Part shown: positions 14,532-20,855 of the stretch, piece after piece | Layout: every line of letters begins with the position of its first letter | Position numbering within the stretch: the first letter of the stretch is position 1 | NCBI GenBank assembly: GCA_023664605.1 | Contig: JAMPFF010000001.1 | Coordinates: forward strand, 234,426 to 291,560 | Length of the DNA stretch: 57,135 nucleotides | DNA from: Clostridium sp. | GTDB taxonomy: Bacteria; Bacillota; Clostridia; Lachnospirales; Lachnospiraceae | Direction: 5' to 3' | Made by a program: the position numbers and the translations under genes | Notes under the pieces: model-generated | Database searches by the model: none | What the model was told of the DNA's origin: nothing | The model's input: only the letters and a program-made list of their open reading frames with translations

Positions 14532-14810
14532 TTAGGGAACTATTTCCCAATCACCAATCCAGCATTGATTTCTGAGGTCATAAAGACGACGGTAAGTTAT
14601 ACCGTTTATAGTTTTATAAATCCATTGGGTTTTTGCGGAAAATGGCTCGATATTGCTATTGGCTGTTACACTTTCACTTGATAAAAATGATATCTCAATA
14701 GATGAAGTAATATTGCTATTTGAGATTGGTTTGGCTTGAGAGGTAAAACCTCCCATATTAAACAAAATAGCTGCACATAATATGGATACAAGAACTTTTG
14801 CATTTTTCAT
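14532..14810 (-). CDS. Small secreted peptide of the BlaI/BlaR1-like operon
   Basis: Unnamed 92-residue protein with a signal peptide (MKNAKVLVSILCAAILFNMGG, cleavage probably after SQA) and a mature part ending NGITYRRLYDLRNQCWIGDWEIVP. Short secreted proteins with this aromatic, basic TQW..Y...NG..YRRLYD....WIGDW ending are familiar in Clostridia, but I know no function. The ATG overlaps the stop of the upstream M56 gene (ATGA), so the two are translationally coupled; AAAGGAG lies in the end of the M56 gene. Placement suggests a secreted partner, bait or ligand of the M56 sensor, which is inference. Confidence 0.75.
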   Translation of the reverse strand: MKNAKVLVSILCAAILFNMGGFTSQAKPISNSNITSSIEISFLSSESVTANSNIEPFSAKTQWIYKTINGITYRRLYDLRNQCWIGDWEIVP

Positions 14811-15961
14811 TGGATTAATTCTCCTTTCGTATTCATGATAGGTAAAGTGTTGTCAAAAATCGTAGTGACAGTCGAAAAATATTCATTATTGATATAAATA
14901 TCGTATCTCCCATCTTCCCTTAGGACAAGACAGCCATTGTCTTTGTCAATGCAGACTGCATCCTCTAAAATTTCTTCTGGTATTTCACCACAAGGTTCCA
15001 ATATAAATAAATTAGGTAGAAATAATGTACATATAATCAATATCACAGCTAAGGCAGAAGCAACAGACCGATGCAGTTGAGGCGAAGCGGCTGTTTCGGA
15101 AAAGTCCAGAAGAGCTGTAATTCGCTTTCGGATTTTGGTATTGCTTTGAAATGCGGCAACACGATTATCTGCTTTTGTGGGCTGTTGTTTTGCTATCTTA
15201 ATCAGACATTGAATGTATTCCAGCTGTTGTAATTTGTCTGCAAACTGGACAACTGCTACATCGGCGTAAAATTCTTGAAATCTGATAATCTGGTTTCGCA
15301 GGACATATATGAACGGGTTCCACCAATAAATAATCTGTAATAATTCACATACAAAGCGTAGCCATAAATCTTTATGATAATAATGATAAATCTCGTGTTT
15401 TAATATGTAATACCATTCAATTTCTGATAGTTGTATGTCAGGCAGTACAATGATTGGTTTATAAAGACCGAATAGATATGGTGTCATCTGGCTCGGATTT
15501 TTAACAGCGCGAAAGCGCTTTTTACCTCCAAGTTCATGATTTATTTTATTGACTAATTCCGTTATGATATGAATCTCTACAGGCTCATATCTGTTTATAG
15601 ACCAGGTAGTGACAATATAAAATAATAATAACCTGCAAAAATATATTATACTGCCGATGATAGACAGTGCCGCCGCAACAAATAAGAGAGAATACTCTTT
15701 TCCAGCGTATGAAATCGTGGCATTGATAAAAGAAACATAGAGATCAGGATAGATTTTGGTAATATATAGGTTATGCTGGCAAGGCAATTCTATGGGAAGA
15801 AAAAGGCGTATCATGAGTATGAGCAATATAGACAACACAAACGGTCTTTTTCTAGCTATCCCGGGTGGTGTGCCTAATTTATTTGCCATGCAATAAAGCA
15901 GTAATATCGCCATGGAGCTAAAGCATAAAGTATTAACAACTGAAACGATGCTTAAATCCAT
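14807..15961 (-). CDS. BlaR1-like membrane-embedded M56 metallopeptidase, sensor
   Basis: Integral membrane zinc protease of 384 residues. By analogy with BlaR1/MecR1 it would sense an extracellular signal and inactivate the cytoplasmic repressor encoded next to it. N-terminal membrane helices lie at about 8-26, 41-56 and 91-118; the zinc motif is HEIYH at 189-193 inside LKHEIYHYYHKDLW, with FQEFYADVAVV downstream supplying the third ligand. After a final helix (AVILIICTLFLPNLFIL) only some 60 extracellular residues follow. The roughly 250-residue penicillin-binding sensor domain of true BlaR1 is absent, so the signal is not expected to be a beta-lactam. It starts 14 bases after blaI. Confidence 0.88.
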   Translation of the reverse strand: MDLSIVSVVNTLCFSSMAILLLYCMANKLGTPPGIARKRPFVLSILLILMIRLFLPIELPCQHNLYITKIYPDLYVSFINATISYAGKEYSLLFVAAALSIIGSIIYFCRLLLFYIVTTWSINRYEPVEIHIITELVNKINHELGGKKRFRAVKNPSQMTPYLFGLYKPIIVLPDIQLSEIEWYYILKHEIYHYYHKDLWLRFVCELLQIIYWWNPFIYVLRNQIIRFQEFYADVAVVQFADKLQQLEYIQCLIKIAKQQPTKADNRVAAFQSNTKIRKRITALLDFSETAASPQLHRSVASALAVILIICTLFLPNLFILEPCGEIPEEILEDAVCIDKDNGCLVLREDGRYDIYINNEYFSTVTTIFDNTLPIMNTKGELIQ

Positions 15962-15975
15962 AAGTGAGTTCCTCC

Positions 15976-16413
15976 TTATTTTTCATCTGGTTTGTCAGAG
16001 GCTTGGCGTTGGTTTTGAAGGAGTTGCGTTTTCCTTGCACGGATGATTTCTTCCAATTGATTAAGTTCTTCCAGAGTCTTATCATCATTATCAGTTGGAA
16101 GAAGTGCGGCAATCAAATGAGAGGCCGCAATATTCTTGTTGGCCAGACCGCTGAATATTTCCTGTATGGCATTGATTTCTATGCTTTCTATACTGACTAA
16201 AGGTTTAAATGTCCGCCCTAGTGCTTTCTTGTTGTATGCAATGCCATCTATGGCAACCATGTTTTTCTTGATAAGGTTTTGTACAATTCGCTGTACACTG
16301 TAGATAGTTCCATTTTTATCTTTCTGTACAATCTCAGATACCATAAGGGAGCGATCGGCTTCACATAGTATTCGCATAACGGCCAGTTCTCGGTTTGTAA
16401 GTTTCATTTTCAA
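15976..16413 (-). CDS. BlaI/MecI/CopY-family transcriptional repressor
   Basis: Winged-helix repressor of 145 residues, KMKLTNRELAVMRILCEADRSLMVSEIVQ followed by the recognition-helix region TIYSVQRIVQNLIKKNMVAIDG, then a C-terminal dimerisation region with SHLIAALLP and ELNQLEEIIRARKTQL. In known family members the paired M56 protease cuts the repressor and frees the promoter. It heads the minus-strand operon with the M56 gene and a small secreted peptide. An inverted repeat sits between the -35 and -10 of its own promoter, implying autorepression, and a related palindrome lies at the divergent promoter. The start follows GAGGAGAATTAAAATTGAAA. Confidence 0.93.
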   Translation of the reverse strand: MKMKLTNRELAVMRILCEADRSLMVSEIVQKDKNGTIYSVQRIVQNLIKKNMVAIDGIAYNKKALGRTFKPLVSIESIEINAIQEIFSGLANKNIAASHLIAALLPTDNDDKTLEELNQLEEIIRARKTQLLQNQRQASDKPDEK

Positions 16414-16476
16414 TTTTAATTCTCCTCGGAATATGCTAGATGATTATATACTAAATTTGTAATAATAAGTATAAAA

Positions 16477-16506
16477 ATTATATCAGACAACCATTGTCTA
16501 TGTCAA
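16477..16506 (-). promoter_or_regulatory. Promoter and probable operator of the blaI-like operon
   Basis: On the minus strand TTGACA (16506-16501), an 18-base spacer and TATAAT (16482-16477) form an almost perfect promoter. The spacer holds an inverted repeat AGACAA-N3-TTGTCT (16485-16499), so bound repressor would cover both hexamers. The half-site is the same as that of the palindrome at 16636-16655. Confidence 0.82.
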
Positions 16507-16604
16507 CAACATTATACAGCATAATACAAAAATATGTTTTGTTATTGAATTGATGATTAATCTATCGCGAAGATATTACTAAATATTGCATTGCAGTATA
16601 AATA

Positions 16605-16655
16605 TTGACAATGCCGCAAAATTGTGATAGCCTAATATTGTCTAATTAGACAATA
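16605..16655 (+). promoter_or_regulatory. Promoter and probable operator of the secreted-protein/ABC operon
   Basis: TTGACA (16605-16610), 17-base spacer and a weak -10 TAGCCT (16628-16633). Immediately after it lies the perfect 20-base palindrome TATTGTCTAATTAGACAATA (16636-16655), over the expected transcription start. It is made of TTGTCT-N4-AGACAA, the half-site found in the divergent blaI promoter, so the BlaI-like repressor very probably controls both operons. Confidence 0.75.
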
Positions 16656-16703
16656 GTTGTGTTGCGCGACAATTATAAATAAAAAAGGAAGGAGGTAATA
16701 TTT

Positions 16704-17111
16704 ATGCAAAAGGGATTTTTTAAGAAGAAAGTGGCTATGTGTGCTGCGATGACTCTAATTGGTTGTATGCTTTTGGGAACAACAGCAATGGCGGCTGACC
16801 CATCATACTCTTTTAGCGTTAAGAAAGGGGAGTATGGGTACAGCGGTTCCGGTAAGAAGACAAAATCCGGGCAAACCTTTAAAATCGATGTAAAGAAGTA
16901 CGATGCTGATGGATATTTCTTCATTTGTCCGCTTGAAGGAAATAAACAGGTAGGAACGGATGTAACGGTCACGGGTACAGGAACATATGATAATGGAACC
17001 TATTACGAAACAGCATATACCGGTCATACATATCAATTGATGGGCTTTTATGACGACTTGCAGAGTCCTGTAAGCAGTAAGTGCAGTTGTAGCGGAACAT
17101 GGACTCCGTAA
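16704..17111 (+). CDS. Secreted protein of the BlaI-controlled operon (possible DUF2712/bacteriocin-like)
   Basis: Unknown function. The 135-residue precursor has a clear Sec signal peptide (FKKKVAMCAAMTLIGCMLL, cleavage after AMA). The mature part of about 103 residues is polar and rich in Gly, Tyr and Thr, with three cysteines (FFICPL and KCSCSGTWTP at the C-terminus). Small exported proteins ending in a similar SG.W.P motif and lying beside ABC genes have been grouped as DUF2712; that assignment is from memory and weak. It has the best ribosome binding site of the region (GGAAGGAGG) and is followed by a hairpin before the lipoprotein gene, the usual layout for an abundant product with an export or immunity set. 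Confidence 0.7.
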   Translation: MQKGFFKKKVAMCAAMTLIGCMLLGTTAMAADPSYSFSVKKGEYGYSGSGKKTKSGQTFKIDVKKYDADGYFFICPLEGNKQVGTDVTVTGTGTYDNGTYYETAYTGHTYQLMGFYDDLQSPVSSKCSCSGTWTP

Positions 17112-17176
17112 TATTATGAAATTCATAATAATAGATTGTGAGTTCAATTTTTCGGTGCTGGTGATGGAGTAACTTT

Positions 17177-17212
17177 TAGGAGTTCTGGAATTAAATAGTG
17201 ACAGAACTCCTA
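17177..17212 (+). terminator. Stem-loop, probable partial terminator after the secreted-protein gene
   Basis: TAGGAGTTCTG and CAGAACTCCTA form a perfect 11-bp stem around a 14-base loop, followed by an A-rich rather than T-rich tail. It may lower expression of the lipoprotein/ABC genes relative to the secreted protein, or stabilise the short message. Confidence 0.55.
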
Positions 17213-17271
17213 TTAGAAAAAATTAACAAAAGGCAATACTTTTGGATGACTGTAATAAAAGGAAATAAAAT

Positions 17272-18462
17272 ATGGAAAACATAAACAGAAAACGGGTAAA
17301 AATAATCACATATATAACGCTTTGTGTTTTTATGTTATCAGCATGCAGTCAAAGCAAAATGAAGACTGTAGATATTAAGAACAGCGAAGGAAATTCCACG
17401 CATAAATCACAGGAAAACATGGAAAGTGTATGGCAAAATACAGAGAATGAAGTGCGCACTATTCCGCCCCGAGTTTCTGCACAGAGTGATTTGTTGTCAG
17501 TACAGGCAGAAGTATATGTGGCAGAAGGTATAAACTTAAATGCAGTGCCTTTAGGAAAAGCAGAGGTACATTTGATGGATACAGACAAGATATGTGAGGA
17601 TCTGTCCTATGGAGTGGATGTGAATGATAAAGTAGAGTATGAGAAAGACGGAAATGAAGACCTGGATTCTTTTATTTCCAGAACATTCTATTATGAAGAT
17701 GGACGGGTCCTTGTCATAGAACCTCTCTATCTTTCCTATATTACGCCGAGATTAAGTTTTATTGATAATAGGGTTATGTGGGAAGAGGAGGGTGTTGACC
17801 TTTATAATATGGAAGTATACAAAGATACGGAATTACCTTTTGCGAAATCGGAGGATGTTTATGAAGAGGTGAAGTGCGCTCTGGAACAATGGGGCGTTCT
17901 AATCGGAGAAGAGTATGAACTTTTTGGATTGGATCATAAAACGATGAAAGAGCAGGAGTATGTAACTAATGAGGCGGGCGAATACGATGCTTCTTTAAAA
18001 AAGGAGAGCTGGACAGAGGAAGATGATTGCTATTATTTCCGATGTACGCAGGAATTTCATGGAATGCCTATTTATTATTACGGCTATGGTGTGCTTCGAG
18101 GGTATCATAATATAGGTTCGGCTTTTAAGGTAAAATATGATAAGGATGGCTTTGTAGAGATTACGATAGAGAGACCTTATGATGTGCGGGATATGGGTAA
18201 GACAGTGAGTATTATTTCGGCAGAAGATGCAGTGGATTGTCTAATCCGGAAATTTAATAATATCATAATGACGGATCCAGTTGTAGTGGATAAACTCAGT
18301 CTTCAGATGCTTCCACAGCGGATAACGCCAGGCAGTTATGAACTGATTCCGGTGTGGATTTTTGAGGGCAAGGAATATTGGACACTTGATGACGGAACGG
18401 AGAAAGCCGTCAGCGATAAATATATGTTTAATGCGGAGACGGGAAAGGAAATCATACTCTGA
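17272..18462 (+). CDS. Lipoprotein of the BlaI-controlled ABC operon
   Basis: Unrecognised 396-residue lipoprotein. A type II signal peptide with lipobox LSAC (cysteine at about residue 25) anchors it outside the membrane. The rest is acidic and soluble, with Tyr- and Asp-rich stretches and a late segment PGSYELIPVWIFEGKEYW.. near the end like those of extracytoplasmic regulatory or substrate-handling proteins. The stop overlaps the start of the next membrane gene by one base, so it is coupled to the permeases. A role in binding the secreted protein or a toxic peptide outside the cell is inference. Confidence 0.72.
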   Translation: MENINRKRVKIITYITLCVFMLSACSQSKMKTVDIKNSEGNSTHKSQENMESVWQNTENEVRTIPPRVSAQSDLLSVQAEVYVAEGINLNAVPLGKAEVHLMDTDKICEDLSYGVDVNDKVEYEKDGNEDLDSFISRTFYYEDGRVLVIEPLYLSYITPRLSFIDNRVMWEEEGVDLYNMEVYKDTELPFAKSEDVYEEVKCALEQWGVLIGEEYELFGLDHKTMKEQEYVTNEAGEYDASLKKESWTEEDDCYYFRCTQEFHGMPIYYYGYGVLRGYHNIGSAFKVKYDKDGFVEITIERPYDVRDMGKTVSIISAEDAVDCLIRKFNNIIMTDPVVVDKLSLQMLPQRITPGSYELIPVWIFEGKEYWTLDDGTEKAVSDKYMFNAETGKEIIL

Positions 18463-19247
18463 TGTATACAATATTAAGAAACGATTTACGCAGAACATTT
18501 TTGGCATGGCGTTTTGTGATTGCTATGGCTGGTGTTATTGCCGCCGTGATTGCGACCAGAATGCAGATGGTATATATTTATGATGTATTGTATGCATTTG
18601 AGGGAATTCATATCCGAAGTATGATTTTAATGACGTTTGTATTTTGTGCTTATCCAAGTGTCAGTATGTTGCTTGATGAGATTAGAAACAGATATTGGAT
18701 TCAGATGGTACTCAGAAGTGGCATTAGGAGATATGCCATATCTAAAATAGTTGTCTGTATTTTGTCTGCACAGATTACAATGTTTGCAGGTAAAGGGATT
18801 TATATTTTAATTTTGCGGTTGAAATATCCGTTGATTGATTATGAGGGTAGCGCCTATCAAAATATGATAGCACATGGAAATTATATGATGTTGTCAGGCA
18901 AACATCCGCGGATGTTTTTCTTCTGCGCTATTTTGGTGACGGCTCTACTGGCGGCAATATTATCGCTTTGCAGTATGCTGTGTATTTTATGTGTTAAGAT
19001 TAATTGTATCACGGCACTCAGCGTTCCAATCGTCTTATTTTATTTTATCAATACATATTTGATACGTATTATGAAGTTGCCAAATCAGTTTAATATTGCA
19101 TCAATTTTTAGTATTTTTTATAATGTGTTGGATAATGATGCTAAAAGTGTTCTGTACGCCTTGGGATTTGCGGGTGTCTGTTTTGTGCTTTTGGGATTTA
19201 TCATTGTGAAGGTGCTGACAAAAAGAGTACGAAGAGGGGAATTCTAG
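18462..19247 (+). CDS. Membrane protein, probable ABC permease subunit A
   Basis: A 261-residue protein with about six hydrophobic segments (for instance FVIAMAGVIAAVI, ILMTFVFCAYPSVSMLL, FFCAILVTALLAAILSL, ALSVPIVLFYFI and GFAGVCFVLLGFIIV). I do not recognise a named family, but size, topology and the adjacent ATPase fit the ABC-2-like permeases of peptide export or immunity systems. The ATG overlaps the lipoprotein stop (TGATG) and its own stop overlaps the next start, so expression is tightly coupled. Confidence 0.72.
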   Translation: MYTILRNDLRRTFLAWRFVIAMAGVIAAVIATRMQMVYIYDVLYAFEGIHIRSMILMTFVFCAYPSVSMLLDEIRNRYWIQMVLRSGIRRYAISKIVVCILSAQITMFAGKGIYILILRLKYPLIDYEGSAYQNMIAHGNYMMLSGKHPRMFFFCAILVTALLAAILSLCSMLCILCVKINCITALSVPIVLFYFINTYLIRIMKLPNQFNIASIFSIFYNVLDNDAKSVLYALGFAGVCFVLLGFIIVKVLTKRVRRGEF

Positions 19248-20086
19248 TGATTATACGAATAGTGAAATATAAATGGAGAGCGCAACTTTCAATGAGCCGA
19301 TTTTATGTGGCTTTGCTTTTAATAATCTTTTTTTTGGATATTTATATTGCACCAGTACGGTATTTTTGTAAAGCGGTGGGTGAAAAGATATCTCCGTTCT
19401 TATATCCCTGCCTGATTACGGATAATAGCCTTCTTCTGCTTTTGCTTTTATGCTTTCTTTTTTTGATTGCAGATGTTCCGTTTTTAGATCAGTCGATGAC
19501 GTATATTATGATTAGGAGCGGTAAAAAGACATGGCTGAAAGCGCAAATGATTTATTTGCTTACTGTCAGTATTTTTTTTATGGGATTCATCTATCTTAGC
19601 AGTATTTTATTGTGTCTGCCGCATTTGCAGATGATGAACGGATGGGGGAGGATCATCGGAACATTGGCACAGACGGATGCAGGTACTATTTTTGATGTCA
19701 ATATTTTTCCGTCCTATGAAATGATGTTGGATTACGCACCAATAGAGGCGGTGTTGGCTACATTGCTCGCAGGGGTTCTGGTGGTTTATATGTTTTGTTT
19801 AGCGTTGTTCTGGATTAGTTTGTACTTCTCAAGGATGCTTGGAATATGCATCGTAACAGGAGAGATTCTGATTGTGACTACGGCATGGAGATTGGGGCTA
19901 TGGGGTACTTATGTTTTTCCAGTTACATGGATGCAGTTGACTACTGTGACTAAAAATAGCGCGAACAGCCGTCCACTGCTATGGATAACATGGGGAGTTT
20001 TGTTGCTTTTGATTGGTGTGTTCCGATTTATGATCTTAAAAATGAGCGGGCGACTGGAAGCGATTACTGCAATAGAACAGGAATAA
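19247..20086 (+). CDS. Membrane protein, probable ABC permease subunit B
   Basis: A 279-residue polytopic protein starting at GTG, which overlaps the previous stop (TAGTG). Hydrophobic segments include FYVALLLIIFFLDIYI, LLLLLLLCFLFLIADV, YLLTVSIFFMGFIYLSSILL, VLATLLAGVLVVYMFCLALFWI and LLWITWGVLLLLIGVFRFMIL. With subunit A it probably forms the heterodimeric membrane part of the transporter; no specific family is recognised. The ATPase gene begins 39 bases downstream. Confidence 0.7.
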   Translation: MIIRIVKYKWRAQLSMSRFYVALLLIIFFLDIYIAPVRYFCKAVGEKISPFLYPCLITDNSLLLLLLLCFLFLIADVPFLDQSMTYIMIRSGKKTWLKAQMIYLLTVSIFFMGFIYLSSILLCLPHLQMMNGWGRIIGTLAQTDAGTIFDVNIFPSYEMMLDYAPIEAVLATLLAGVLVVYMFCLALFWISLYFSRMLGICIVTGEILIVTTAWRLGLWGTYVFPVTWMQLTTVTKNSANSRPLLWITWGVLLLLIGVFRFMILKMSGRLEAITAIEQE

Positions 20087-20125
20087 GAATTGCAGCGCGG
20101 CAGAGAAAGTATAGGGAGGTAGAAA

Positions 20126-20770
20126 ATGGGCGAAATTGTCATAAAAGTAGAACATTTAAGTAAGGCATTTCGTGAGCAGATGGTTCTCAGGGATGTAAAT
20201 GCAGTGTTTGAAAAAGGCAATATTTATGGGATTATAGGAAGAAACGGTTCAGGGAAGAGTATGCTGTTTAAATGTATCTGCGGATTCATTCGTCCTACGG
20301 AGGGAAAGGTTCAGATTTATGGAATGGAAATTGGAAAAGACATTGACATGGCTCCATGTACAGGAATGCTGATAGAAGGTACAGGATTTTTGGCAAATTA
20401 TAGTGCGTATCATAACCTGGAGTTTTTGGTCAATATCAAGAAAAAGGTGGGAAAACAGAAGATATTAGATGTACTGAAAACAGTAGGACTTGAGGATGCG
20501 GGTGCCAAAAAGGTAGGTAAATTCTCAATGGGGATGAAACAGCGTCTTGGAATTGCTCAAGCTATTGTAGAAGAGCAGGAGATTCTCATTTTAGATGAGC
20601 CGATGAATGGATTGGACCATCAAGGTGTAAAGGAAATGAGGAACTTGCTTTTGGATTTAAAAGATAAACAATGCACAATTCTTGTAGCAAGTCATAACAA
20701 AGAGGATATAGAGATTTTATGCGATAAAGTATACGAGATGGACGATGGGATTTTGACGGCATGTCCATAA
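20126..20770 (+). CDS. ABC transporter ATP-binding protein
   Basis: Cytoplasmic ATPase of 214 residues powering the two upstream membrane proteins. Walker A is GRNGSGKSM (about residues 38-46; the usual Thr after GKS is Met), signature FSMGMKQRLGIAQAI, Walker B ILILDEPMNGLD and switch His VASHNKED. The short single-domain form without C-terminal extension resembles the BcrA/NatA and lantibiotic-immunity group. ATG follows AGGGAGGTAGAAA. It ends the BlaI-controlled operon. Confidence 0.92.
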   Translation: MGEIVIKVEHLSKAFREQMVLRDVNAVFEKGNIYGIIGRNGSGKSMLFKCICGFIRPTEGKVQIYGMEIGKDIDMAPCTGMLIEGTGFLANYSAYHNLEFLVNIKKKVGKQKILDVLKTVGLEDAGAKKVGKFSMGMKQRLGIAQAIVEEQEILILDEPMNGLDHQGVKEMRNLLLDLKDKQCTILVASHNKEDIEILCDKVYEMDDGILTACP

Positions 20771-20822: not shown

Positions 20823-20855
20823 AAGGGAAAACATCCGATTTGGTGTTTTCCCTTT
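20823..20855. terminator. Bidirectional terminator between the ABC operon and the DUF3048 gene
   Basis: AAGGGAAAACA pairs perfectly with TGTTTTCCCTT around a ten-base loop. A T-rich run lies on both strands, so it can end the ABC operon (plus) and the DUF3048 gene (minus). Confidence 0.88.

Follow-up and report, generated by a model that had tools for sequence, protein, structure and literature searches.

A conserved secreted peptide accompanies an M56 (BlaR1-type) protease in Lachnospiraceae, at a locus where BlaI probably controls two divergent operons

The closest described counterparts of the locus analysed here are BlaR1/BlaI and MecR1/MecI of Staphylococcus aureus, which likewise combine an M56 metalloprotease bearing HExxH and ExxxD motifs with a BlaI-family repressor, and whose operators also lie in a divergent intergenic region. 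According to an excerpt of PMC9834060, BlaR1 cleaves BlaI directly. Here, we analysed positions 14532-20770 of a 57,135-nucleotide stretch of Clostridium sp. (Lachnospiraceae; assembly GCA_023664605.1, contig JAMPFF010000001.1). The whole 57-kb stretch, to which coordinates refer unless another locus is named, is called the window; the genome measures 3.59 Mb, and related loci used for comparison carry L numbers. The original prediction had placed eight genes there in two divergent operons, and this arrangement was confirmed: all eight open reading frames (ORFs) were located as described, and the M56 and BlaI families were recognised above cut-off (PF05569 and PF03965, respectively). The minus-strand operon encodes, in this order, BlaI, M56 and a 92-residue secreted peptide, hereafter pep, the three together being called the triad. 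The plus-strand operon encodes a 135-residue secreted protein followed by a cassette of a lipoprotein, two permease-like membrane proteins and an ATP-binding cassette (ABC) ATPase. We show that pep is a conserved partner of the M56 protease.

The pep gene (14532..14810, minus strand) encodes an N-terminal hydrophobic (signal) segment, a variable linker and a conserved core with the consensus W.YK..NG..Y+RLYN.....W..DW. A cysteine was present within the last two residues in 13 of 46 peps (alignment A6). Searched against 397 genomes of the window's family, a profile built from 15 relatives gave matches in 46 at E<=0.01 and in 33 at E<1e-6; a phylum-wide search of 299 genomes gave matches in 4, one of them the genome of the window itself. 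None of the 15 members scanned matched Pfam at E<=0.1, and a PDB sequence search with the pep profile returned nothing up to E 10.

The retrieved loci contained 51 pep ORFs besides that of the window, four of them truncated at contig ends. At 45 of the 47 untruncated loci, an M56 gene was found immediately upstream of pep, usually in the order BlaI, M56, pep, and at 43 of the 47 BlaI shared the strand of pep and lay no more than 3.2 kb from it. At the two exceptions, L103 and L106, all three genes belong to the same cluster in a different order. Eight of the 51 ORFs (L164, L165, L166, L167, L169, L171, L187 and L194) had come from M56 or lipoprotein searches; once those of this origin were excluded, pep stood directly behind M56 in 37 of 39. 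The triad of L167 belongs to the cultivable species Lacrimispora algidixylanolytica. Furthermore, the mechanically delimited M56 and pep ORFs overlap in 37 of 45 loci, by exactly 4 bases in 15, and the window shows such a 4-base overlap, between the start codon of pep and the stop codon of M56. A broader profile returned four new strong matches in genomes that had not been used to build it (three in G1015, one in G936), all four behind BlaI and M56. Among its seven weak matches, no M56 gene adjoined the four that were checked (L276, L278, L280 and L281), the remaining three (L275, L277 and L279) being outside the examined set. A weak match from the phylum search (L057) is preceded by M56-like frames and may be a real pep; no pep was found on retrieval of one weak place from the family search (L113), and nine other weak places were not retrieved. 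These results identify pep as a conserved partner of M56 and suggest that a signal may be encoded within the operon itself. The original prediction had noticed the small secreted peptide, which is indeed present, but mentioned it only in passing and missed this partnership.

The M56 protein (14807..15961, minus strand; 384 amino acids) matches PF05569 with 91.9 bits (cut-off 31). It has four hydrophobic segments, an HEIYH motif at residues 189-193, the pair E230/D234, and D198, Y249 and R280. Residues H189, E190, H193, E230, D234, Y249 and R280 were invariant in 41 aligned M56 proteins, and D198 nearly so (alignment A5, which omits L036, L041, L089, L097 and L102 as split or outside 340-470 residues). 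By our reading of the alignment, these residues match those of BlaR1 that the excerpt of PMC9834060 describes as catalytic or near strictly conserved. The conservation of these residues supports the predicted catalytic competence of the protease. Of the 602 residues of S. aureus BlaR1, the M56 profile covers 6-329 only, the protease part; where BlaR1 has its penicillin sensor, the window protein carries a C-terminal ectodomain, about 60 residues long, past the last membrane segment. NCBIfam model NF000326 scored 90.8 bits, for a cut-off of 400. Since this M56 protein has no penicillin sensor, its signal is probably not a beta-lactam, in line with the original prediction.

A maximum-likelihood tree was built from 92 M56 proteins, frames under 300 residues (L089, L097 and L102) being left out, and all 43 of its pep-linked proteins grouped within a single clade (100/99). 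The controls were 41 M56 proteins from 40 short-frame loci chosen from 60 genomes, a set that provides no frequency estimate and leaves out known pep loci (G000 C11, G051 C21 and G027 C22) and some others. No family pep was found behind any of the 40 control M56 loci. At four of these 40 loci (L237, L239, L256 and L266), the gene directly behind M56 encodes, as judged by eye, a small protein unrelated to pep but likewise beginning in a signal-like manner; secreted partners encoded alongside the protease may thus be common to M56 sensors in general.

We also observed that pep and the M56 ectodomain vary together. Over 41 pairs, distances between pep cores correlated with distances between ectodomains when the protease domain was controlled for (partial r 0.356, a value reached in 0 of 2000 permutations). 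In a sliding-window analysis, the two most C-terminal windows of M56 reached 0.285 and 0.317, the latter covering residues 330-384, and windows ending before residue 356 reached at most 0.15; the pep linker and the M56 tail gave 0.043. With BlaI controlled as well, the value for pep and the ectodomain was 0.285 (3 of 1000 permutations as high). When the pairs were split by distance, it was 0.39 for the more distant half and 0.17 for the nearer one. Ectodomain and BlaI correlated at 0.05. Furthermore, M56 and pep diverge faster than BlaI: identities of the window proteins to those of L187 and L164 were 71-72% for BlaI, 49% and 47% for M56, and 41% and 35% for pep, respectively. This difference fits a matched sensor and ligand, but also two loosely constrained proteins. 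Linkage and co-variation together make it reasonably probable that pep acts on M56.

BlaI (15976..16413, minus strand; 145 amino acids; PF03965, 25.4 bits, cut-off 22.6) starts at a TTG codon or at an ATG two codons downstream. A sigma-70-type promoter of the BlaI-M56-pep operon was located at 16477..16506 on the minus strand, with TTGACA and TATAAT separated by 18 bases (12/12). Its spacer contains operator 1, AGACAA-3-TTGTCT (16485..16499), and operator 2, TTGTCTAATTAGACAA plus AGACAA-3-TTGTGT (16638..16662), lies 5' of the secreted-protein gene; dyad operators thus precede both BlaI's own operon and the divergent one. The pattern AGACAANNNTTGTNT had three matches in the window, all at two places of the shared intergenic region, where shuffled sequences predict 0.04, and TTGTCTANNTAGACAA, with one mismatch allowed, matched once, in the same region (expected 0.00). 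Genome-wide, AGACAANNNTTGTNT had four matches at three places, two of these places being at this locus; as the reversed control pattern was nearly as common (three matches), the genome-wide count alone is not above chance. When the intergenic region was aligned with that of L187, from the same genus, both operator blocks and the ribosome-binding site were kept, with one base changed in operator 1, and the remainder had widely diverged. The related operators that the original prediction saw at both operons are therefore beyond in-window chance and kept in L187, and BlaI probably controls both operons, as had been proposed. On sequence evidence, this is the best-supported step of the model presented below.

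The divergent layout of triad and cassette recurs at five other loci, L187 and L194 in the same genus (L194 without the secreted-protein gene), L169 in a Clostridiales metagenome-assembled genome, and L033 and L112 in other genera; at L101 and L107, triad and cassette are colinear on one strand. At L101 (2830-12400 of that locus), a single M56-pep pair lies between two lipoprotein-permease-ATPase cassettes. The co-conservation of the two operons, which the original prediction had offered as a check, holds at these loci but not in general, as triads and cassettes mostly occur apart. The lipoprotein/permease cassette was lacking at 35 of the 39 triad loci of the pep-profile set and present at four (L033, L101, L107 and L112), compared to none of the 40 control M56 loci (within about 5.5 kb). 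DUF6034 scored above cut-off in 33 of 200 family genomes. When 20 further cassettes of the DUF6034 type were retrieved, 19 had no BlaI/M56, the exception being L155; L033 is the other DUF6034 match adjoining BlaI/M56 among those looked at. Hence, the eight genes do not form one fixed system, contrary to what had been envisaged.

At L155 (2383-10000 of that locus, one strand), BlaI, a 459-residue M56 protein and the DUF6034 cassette are accompanied by two different proteins of small size (186 and 175 amino acids), both with a signal-like start. Two-component systems recognised by Pfam adjoin cassettes at L145, L146 and L163 (OmpR-type) and at the same-genus L197 (LytTR/GHKL), four loci selected by neighbouring gene sizes; at L197 (3642-9391 of that locus), genes for a LytTR regulator and a GHKL kinase are situated opposite the lipoprotein-permease-ATPase cassette. 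Radical S-adenosylmethionine (SAM) or lanthipeptide-synthetase genes were found within about 5.5 kb at 4 of 39 triads (L027, L090, L092 and L094) versus 0 of 40 controls, and a C39-type ABC exporter profile matched at 4 of 39 triads (L028, L030, L034 and L094) versus 2 of 40 controls. Single ABC ATPases were not enriched (9 of 39 versus 10 of 40). Neither a cassette, nor a radical-SAM or lanthipeptide-synthetase gene, nor a C39-type exporter occurs at 28 of the 39 triads. Because the neighbour categories were picked after looking and the radical-SAM/RamC profiles were built from triad loci, these counts provide a lead rather than a test.

The 135-residue secreted protein (16704..17111, plus strand) has an N-terminal hydrophobic segment and the C-terminus G-T-W-T-P. 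It has one clear relative, at L187 (67% identity), and weak matches at L101 and L169; a sequence search of the PDB returned nothing below E 0.1. Two further matches in the 200 family genomes, in an 844-residue frame and in a 456-residue frame also matching M56, were dropped. A C-terminal G-x-[WY]-x-P is common to the secreted proteins of the window (17097-17111), L187, L169, L112 and L101, those of L169, L112 and L101 sharing little else with that of the window. The secreted proteins of L033 and L155 end otherwise, and that of L033 belongs to another family, with a peptidoglycan-binding domain.

The 396-residue lipoprotein (17272..18462, plus strand) carries an LSAC lipobox in its sequence. 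Alone, it did not match PF19499 (DUF6034); profile-profile alignment (hhalign) gave a probability of 97% over 136 C-terminal columns, and the lipoprotein of L033 is a DUF6034 protein (152 bits). By these profile comparisons, the window lipoprotein is probably a distant relative of DUF6034. Membrane protein 1 (18462..19247, plus strand; ABC permease-like, 5 hydrophobic segments) starts within the end of the lipoprotein gene. Membrane protein 2 (19247..20086, plus strand; ABC permease-like, GTG start) has 6 or 7 hydrophobic segments, as two of the seven listed by hydropathy overlap. In Pfam and NCBIfam, no family match was obtained for membrane protein 1 and no convincing one for membrane protein 2. 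The ABC ATPase (20126..20770, plus strand; PF00005, ABC_tran, 100.4 bits) is nearest to the LanF/gallidermin-protection type, its best NCBIfam model being TIGR03740 (lantibiotic protection) at 183.6 bits, below the cut-off of 309.75; a terminator-like hairpin follows its gene (20823..20854, plus strand). No lanthipeptide biosynthesis gene was found among the eight genes. Most likely, the plus-strand operon would encode a secreted factor with LanFEG/LanI-like partners, acting as an export or self-protection set.

The module has a G+C content of 37.3%, compared to 44.7% and 44.1% in its 10-kb flanks, and is situated between dnaJ and a DUF3048 gene, where it looks inserted. Neither neighbour was found in the retrieved stretches of six related loci. 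The low G+C content and the differing neighbours suggest that the module was acquired horizontally. At the gathering threshold, a tRNA was the sole Rfam match in the window. Searches of PHROGs and PADLOC, which covered every protein but the ATPase (seven of eight), returned weak regulator and M56 matches and one match of unknown function, and nothing further.

We propose that the locus encodes a regulated-proteolysis switch of the BlaR1/BlaI type with a peptide input, derepressing both operons, an account that we consider, on balance, just probable. BlaI, bound to the two related operators, would repress its own operon (BlaI, M56 and pep) and the divergent one. As in BlaR1, the active site of M56 would be on the cytoplasmic side, and the secreted pep, to judge from linkage and co-variation, would be the cognate ligand or a detachable sensory subunit of the extracellular M56 tail. 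The sensor domain of BlaR1 would be replaced by a short ectodomain plus a pep encoded downstream, where the sensor domain would continue. Accumulation of pep, or its displacement or capture by an envelope signal, would lead M56 to cleave BlaI; both the sign and the source of this signal are ones that we infer. Derepression of both operons would then provide more pep and receptor, a feedback, along with the secreted protein, the lipoprotein and the LanFEG-like transporter. A more far-reaching version is quorum sensing by regulated proteolysis, in which a Sec-exported, released peptide would be read by its cognate M56 and BlaI would be cut, giving a portable input for operons encoding ribosomally synthesized and post-translationally modified peptides (RiPPs), bacteriocins or transporters across Lachnospiraceae; we advance it tentatively, as it seems rather unlikely.

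Several observations weigh against the proposed peptide-input switch. The plus-strand promoter is poorly recognisable, the best candidate reaching 9/12, and the M56 frame of L036 is without part of the active-site region. The clade that holds the pep-linked M56 proteins also contains 12 without a pep directly behind them, 7 from pep or M56-search loci and 5 from the controls, two of the 12 sitting at the rearranged loci L103 and L106. The pep core also correlated with the N-terminal region of M56 (partial r 0.22, likewise reached in 0 of 2000 permutations), and pep correlated with BlaI after M56 was controlled for (0.32, 37 pairs), indicating that shared history was not fully removed from the co-variation. 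Charge complementarity between pep and the ectodomain was considered and dropped: their mean charges are opposite, but the tails of control M56 proteins are just as acidic, and the two charges are uncorrelated. Finally, the strongly conserved pep core argues against a highly specific pheromone and would better suit a subunit.

Such a subunit could be a passive or inhibitory cap that holds M56 off until an outside envelope-active influence, such as an antimicrobial peptide or damage to the cell wall, releases it, the plus-strand operon then being a detoxification set of the LanFEG/LanI kind. The LanF-like ATPase, the lipoprotein and the two permeases speak for such a cap, as do the similar cassettes beside OmpR-type two-component systems (L145, L146 and L163). 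However, four triads lie near radical-SAM or lanthipeptide-synthetase genes (L090, L092, L094 and L027) and two near C39-peptidase-domain ABC exporters (L028 and L034), suggesting that production, beyond protection, may be controlled there, and we regard the cap as doubtful. An outside antimicrobial peptide, which the original prediction had suggested as inducer, is possible.

It is improbable that pep is itself an antimicrobial or toxin-like product regulated by M56/BlaI together with an immunity transporter. Its small size, secretion and basic, tryptophan-rich core would suit such a product, and a lactococcin 972 bacteriocin profile (TIGR01653) matched weakly (E 0.037). This match reached 14.3 bits for a cut-off of 32.1 and spanned only residues 1-37, mostly the signal segment, and the identification was rejected; furthermore, nearly all peps have an M56 gene, whereas 35 of 39 triads have no cassette nearby. 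Most improbable of all is an ordinary beta-lactam-responsive BlaRI pair that stands by chance beside an unrelated ABC operon. The two protein families are the same, but the absence of a penicillin-binding domain, the NF000326 score far under its cut-off, the retention of the operator blocks of both operons in L187 and the divergent layout at five other loci all oppose a chance association.

Compared to other known systems, the plus-strand operon recalls LanFEG plus LanI (NisFEG/NisI type), which confer lantibiotic self-protection: the ATPase is nearest to TIGR03740, and two membrane proteins and a lipoprotein share its operon. It differs in that the ATPase scores under cut-off, the permeases match no model, the lipoprotein is DUF6034-like and the operon contains no lanthipeptide genes. 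LytTR/GHKL two-component systems of the Agr or Blp type sense peptides, and a related cassette adjoins a LytTR regulator and a GHKL kinase at the same-genus L197; in the window, by contrast, the regulator is a repressor with a membrane protease, and no kinase is present. BlaR1/BlaI-like genes of unclear role are also mentioned, in an excerpt of PMC6807378, on Clostridioides difficile plasmids of the pCD6, ECE4 and ECE6 families, the nearest published observation among the papers listed. On pCD6 (L285, NC_005326.1; 374-2053), the M56 gene is followed by a gene for a small protein with a peptidoglycan-binding domain, a neighbour that, unlike that in the window, is not of the pep family, and on another C. 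difficile plasmid BlaI precedes M56. Among the matches listed in a search of open-access papers, which is weak evidence of absence, no M56-BlaI-peptide system was described, and no open-access paper on DUF6034 was found. PMC13289728 and PMC12506125, retrieved as candidate BlaI papers, were set aside, the "blai" match in the excerpts being the author name Blair only.

The comparison with BlaR1 and MecR1 is the closest. The window M56 protein differs from both in having a short ectodomain and a separate secreted pep gene in place of a penicillin-binding sensor, and its target operon encodes neither a beta-lactamase nor PBP2a. If pep is the input, gut Firmicutes would have peptide sensing through repressor cleavage, and the controlled genes, transporters and some RiPP clusters among them, would become predictable and testable. 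BlaR1/BlaI is known for sensing beta-lactams; the clade of M56 proteins described here has no such sensor domain and travels with a conserved secreted peptide.

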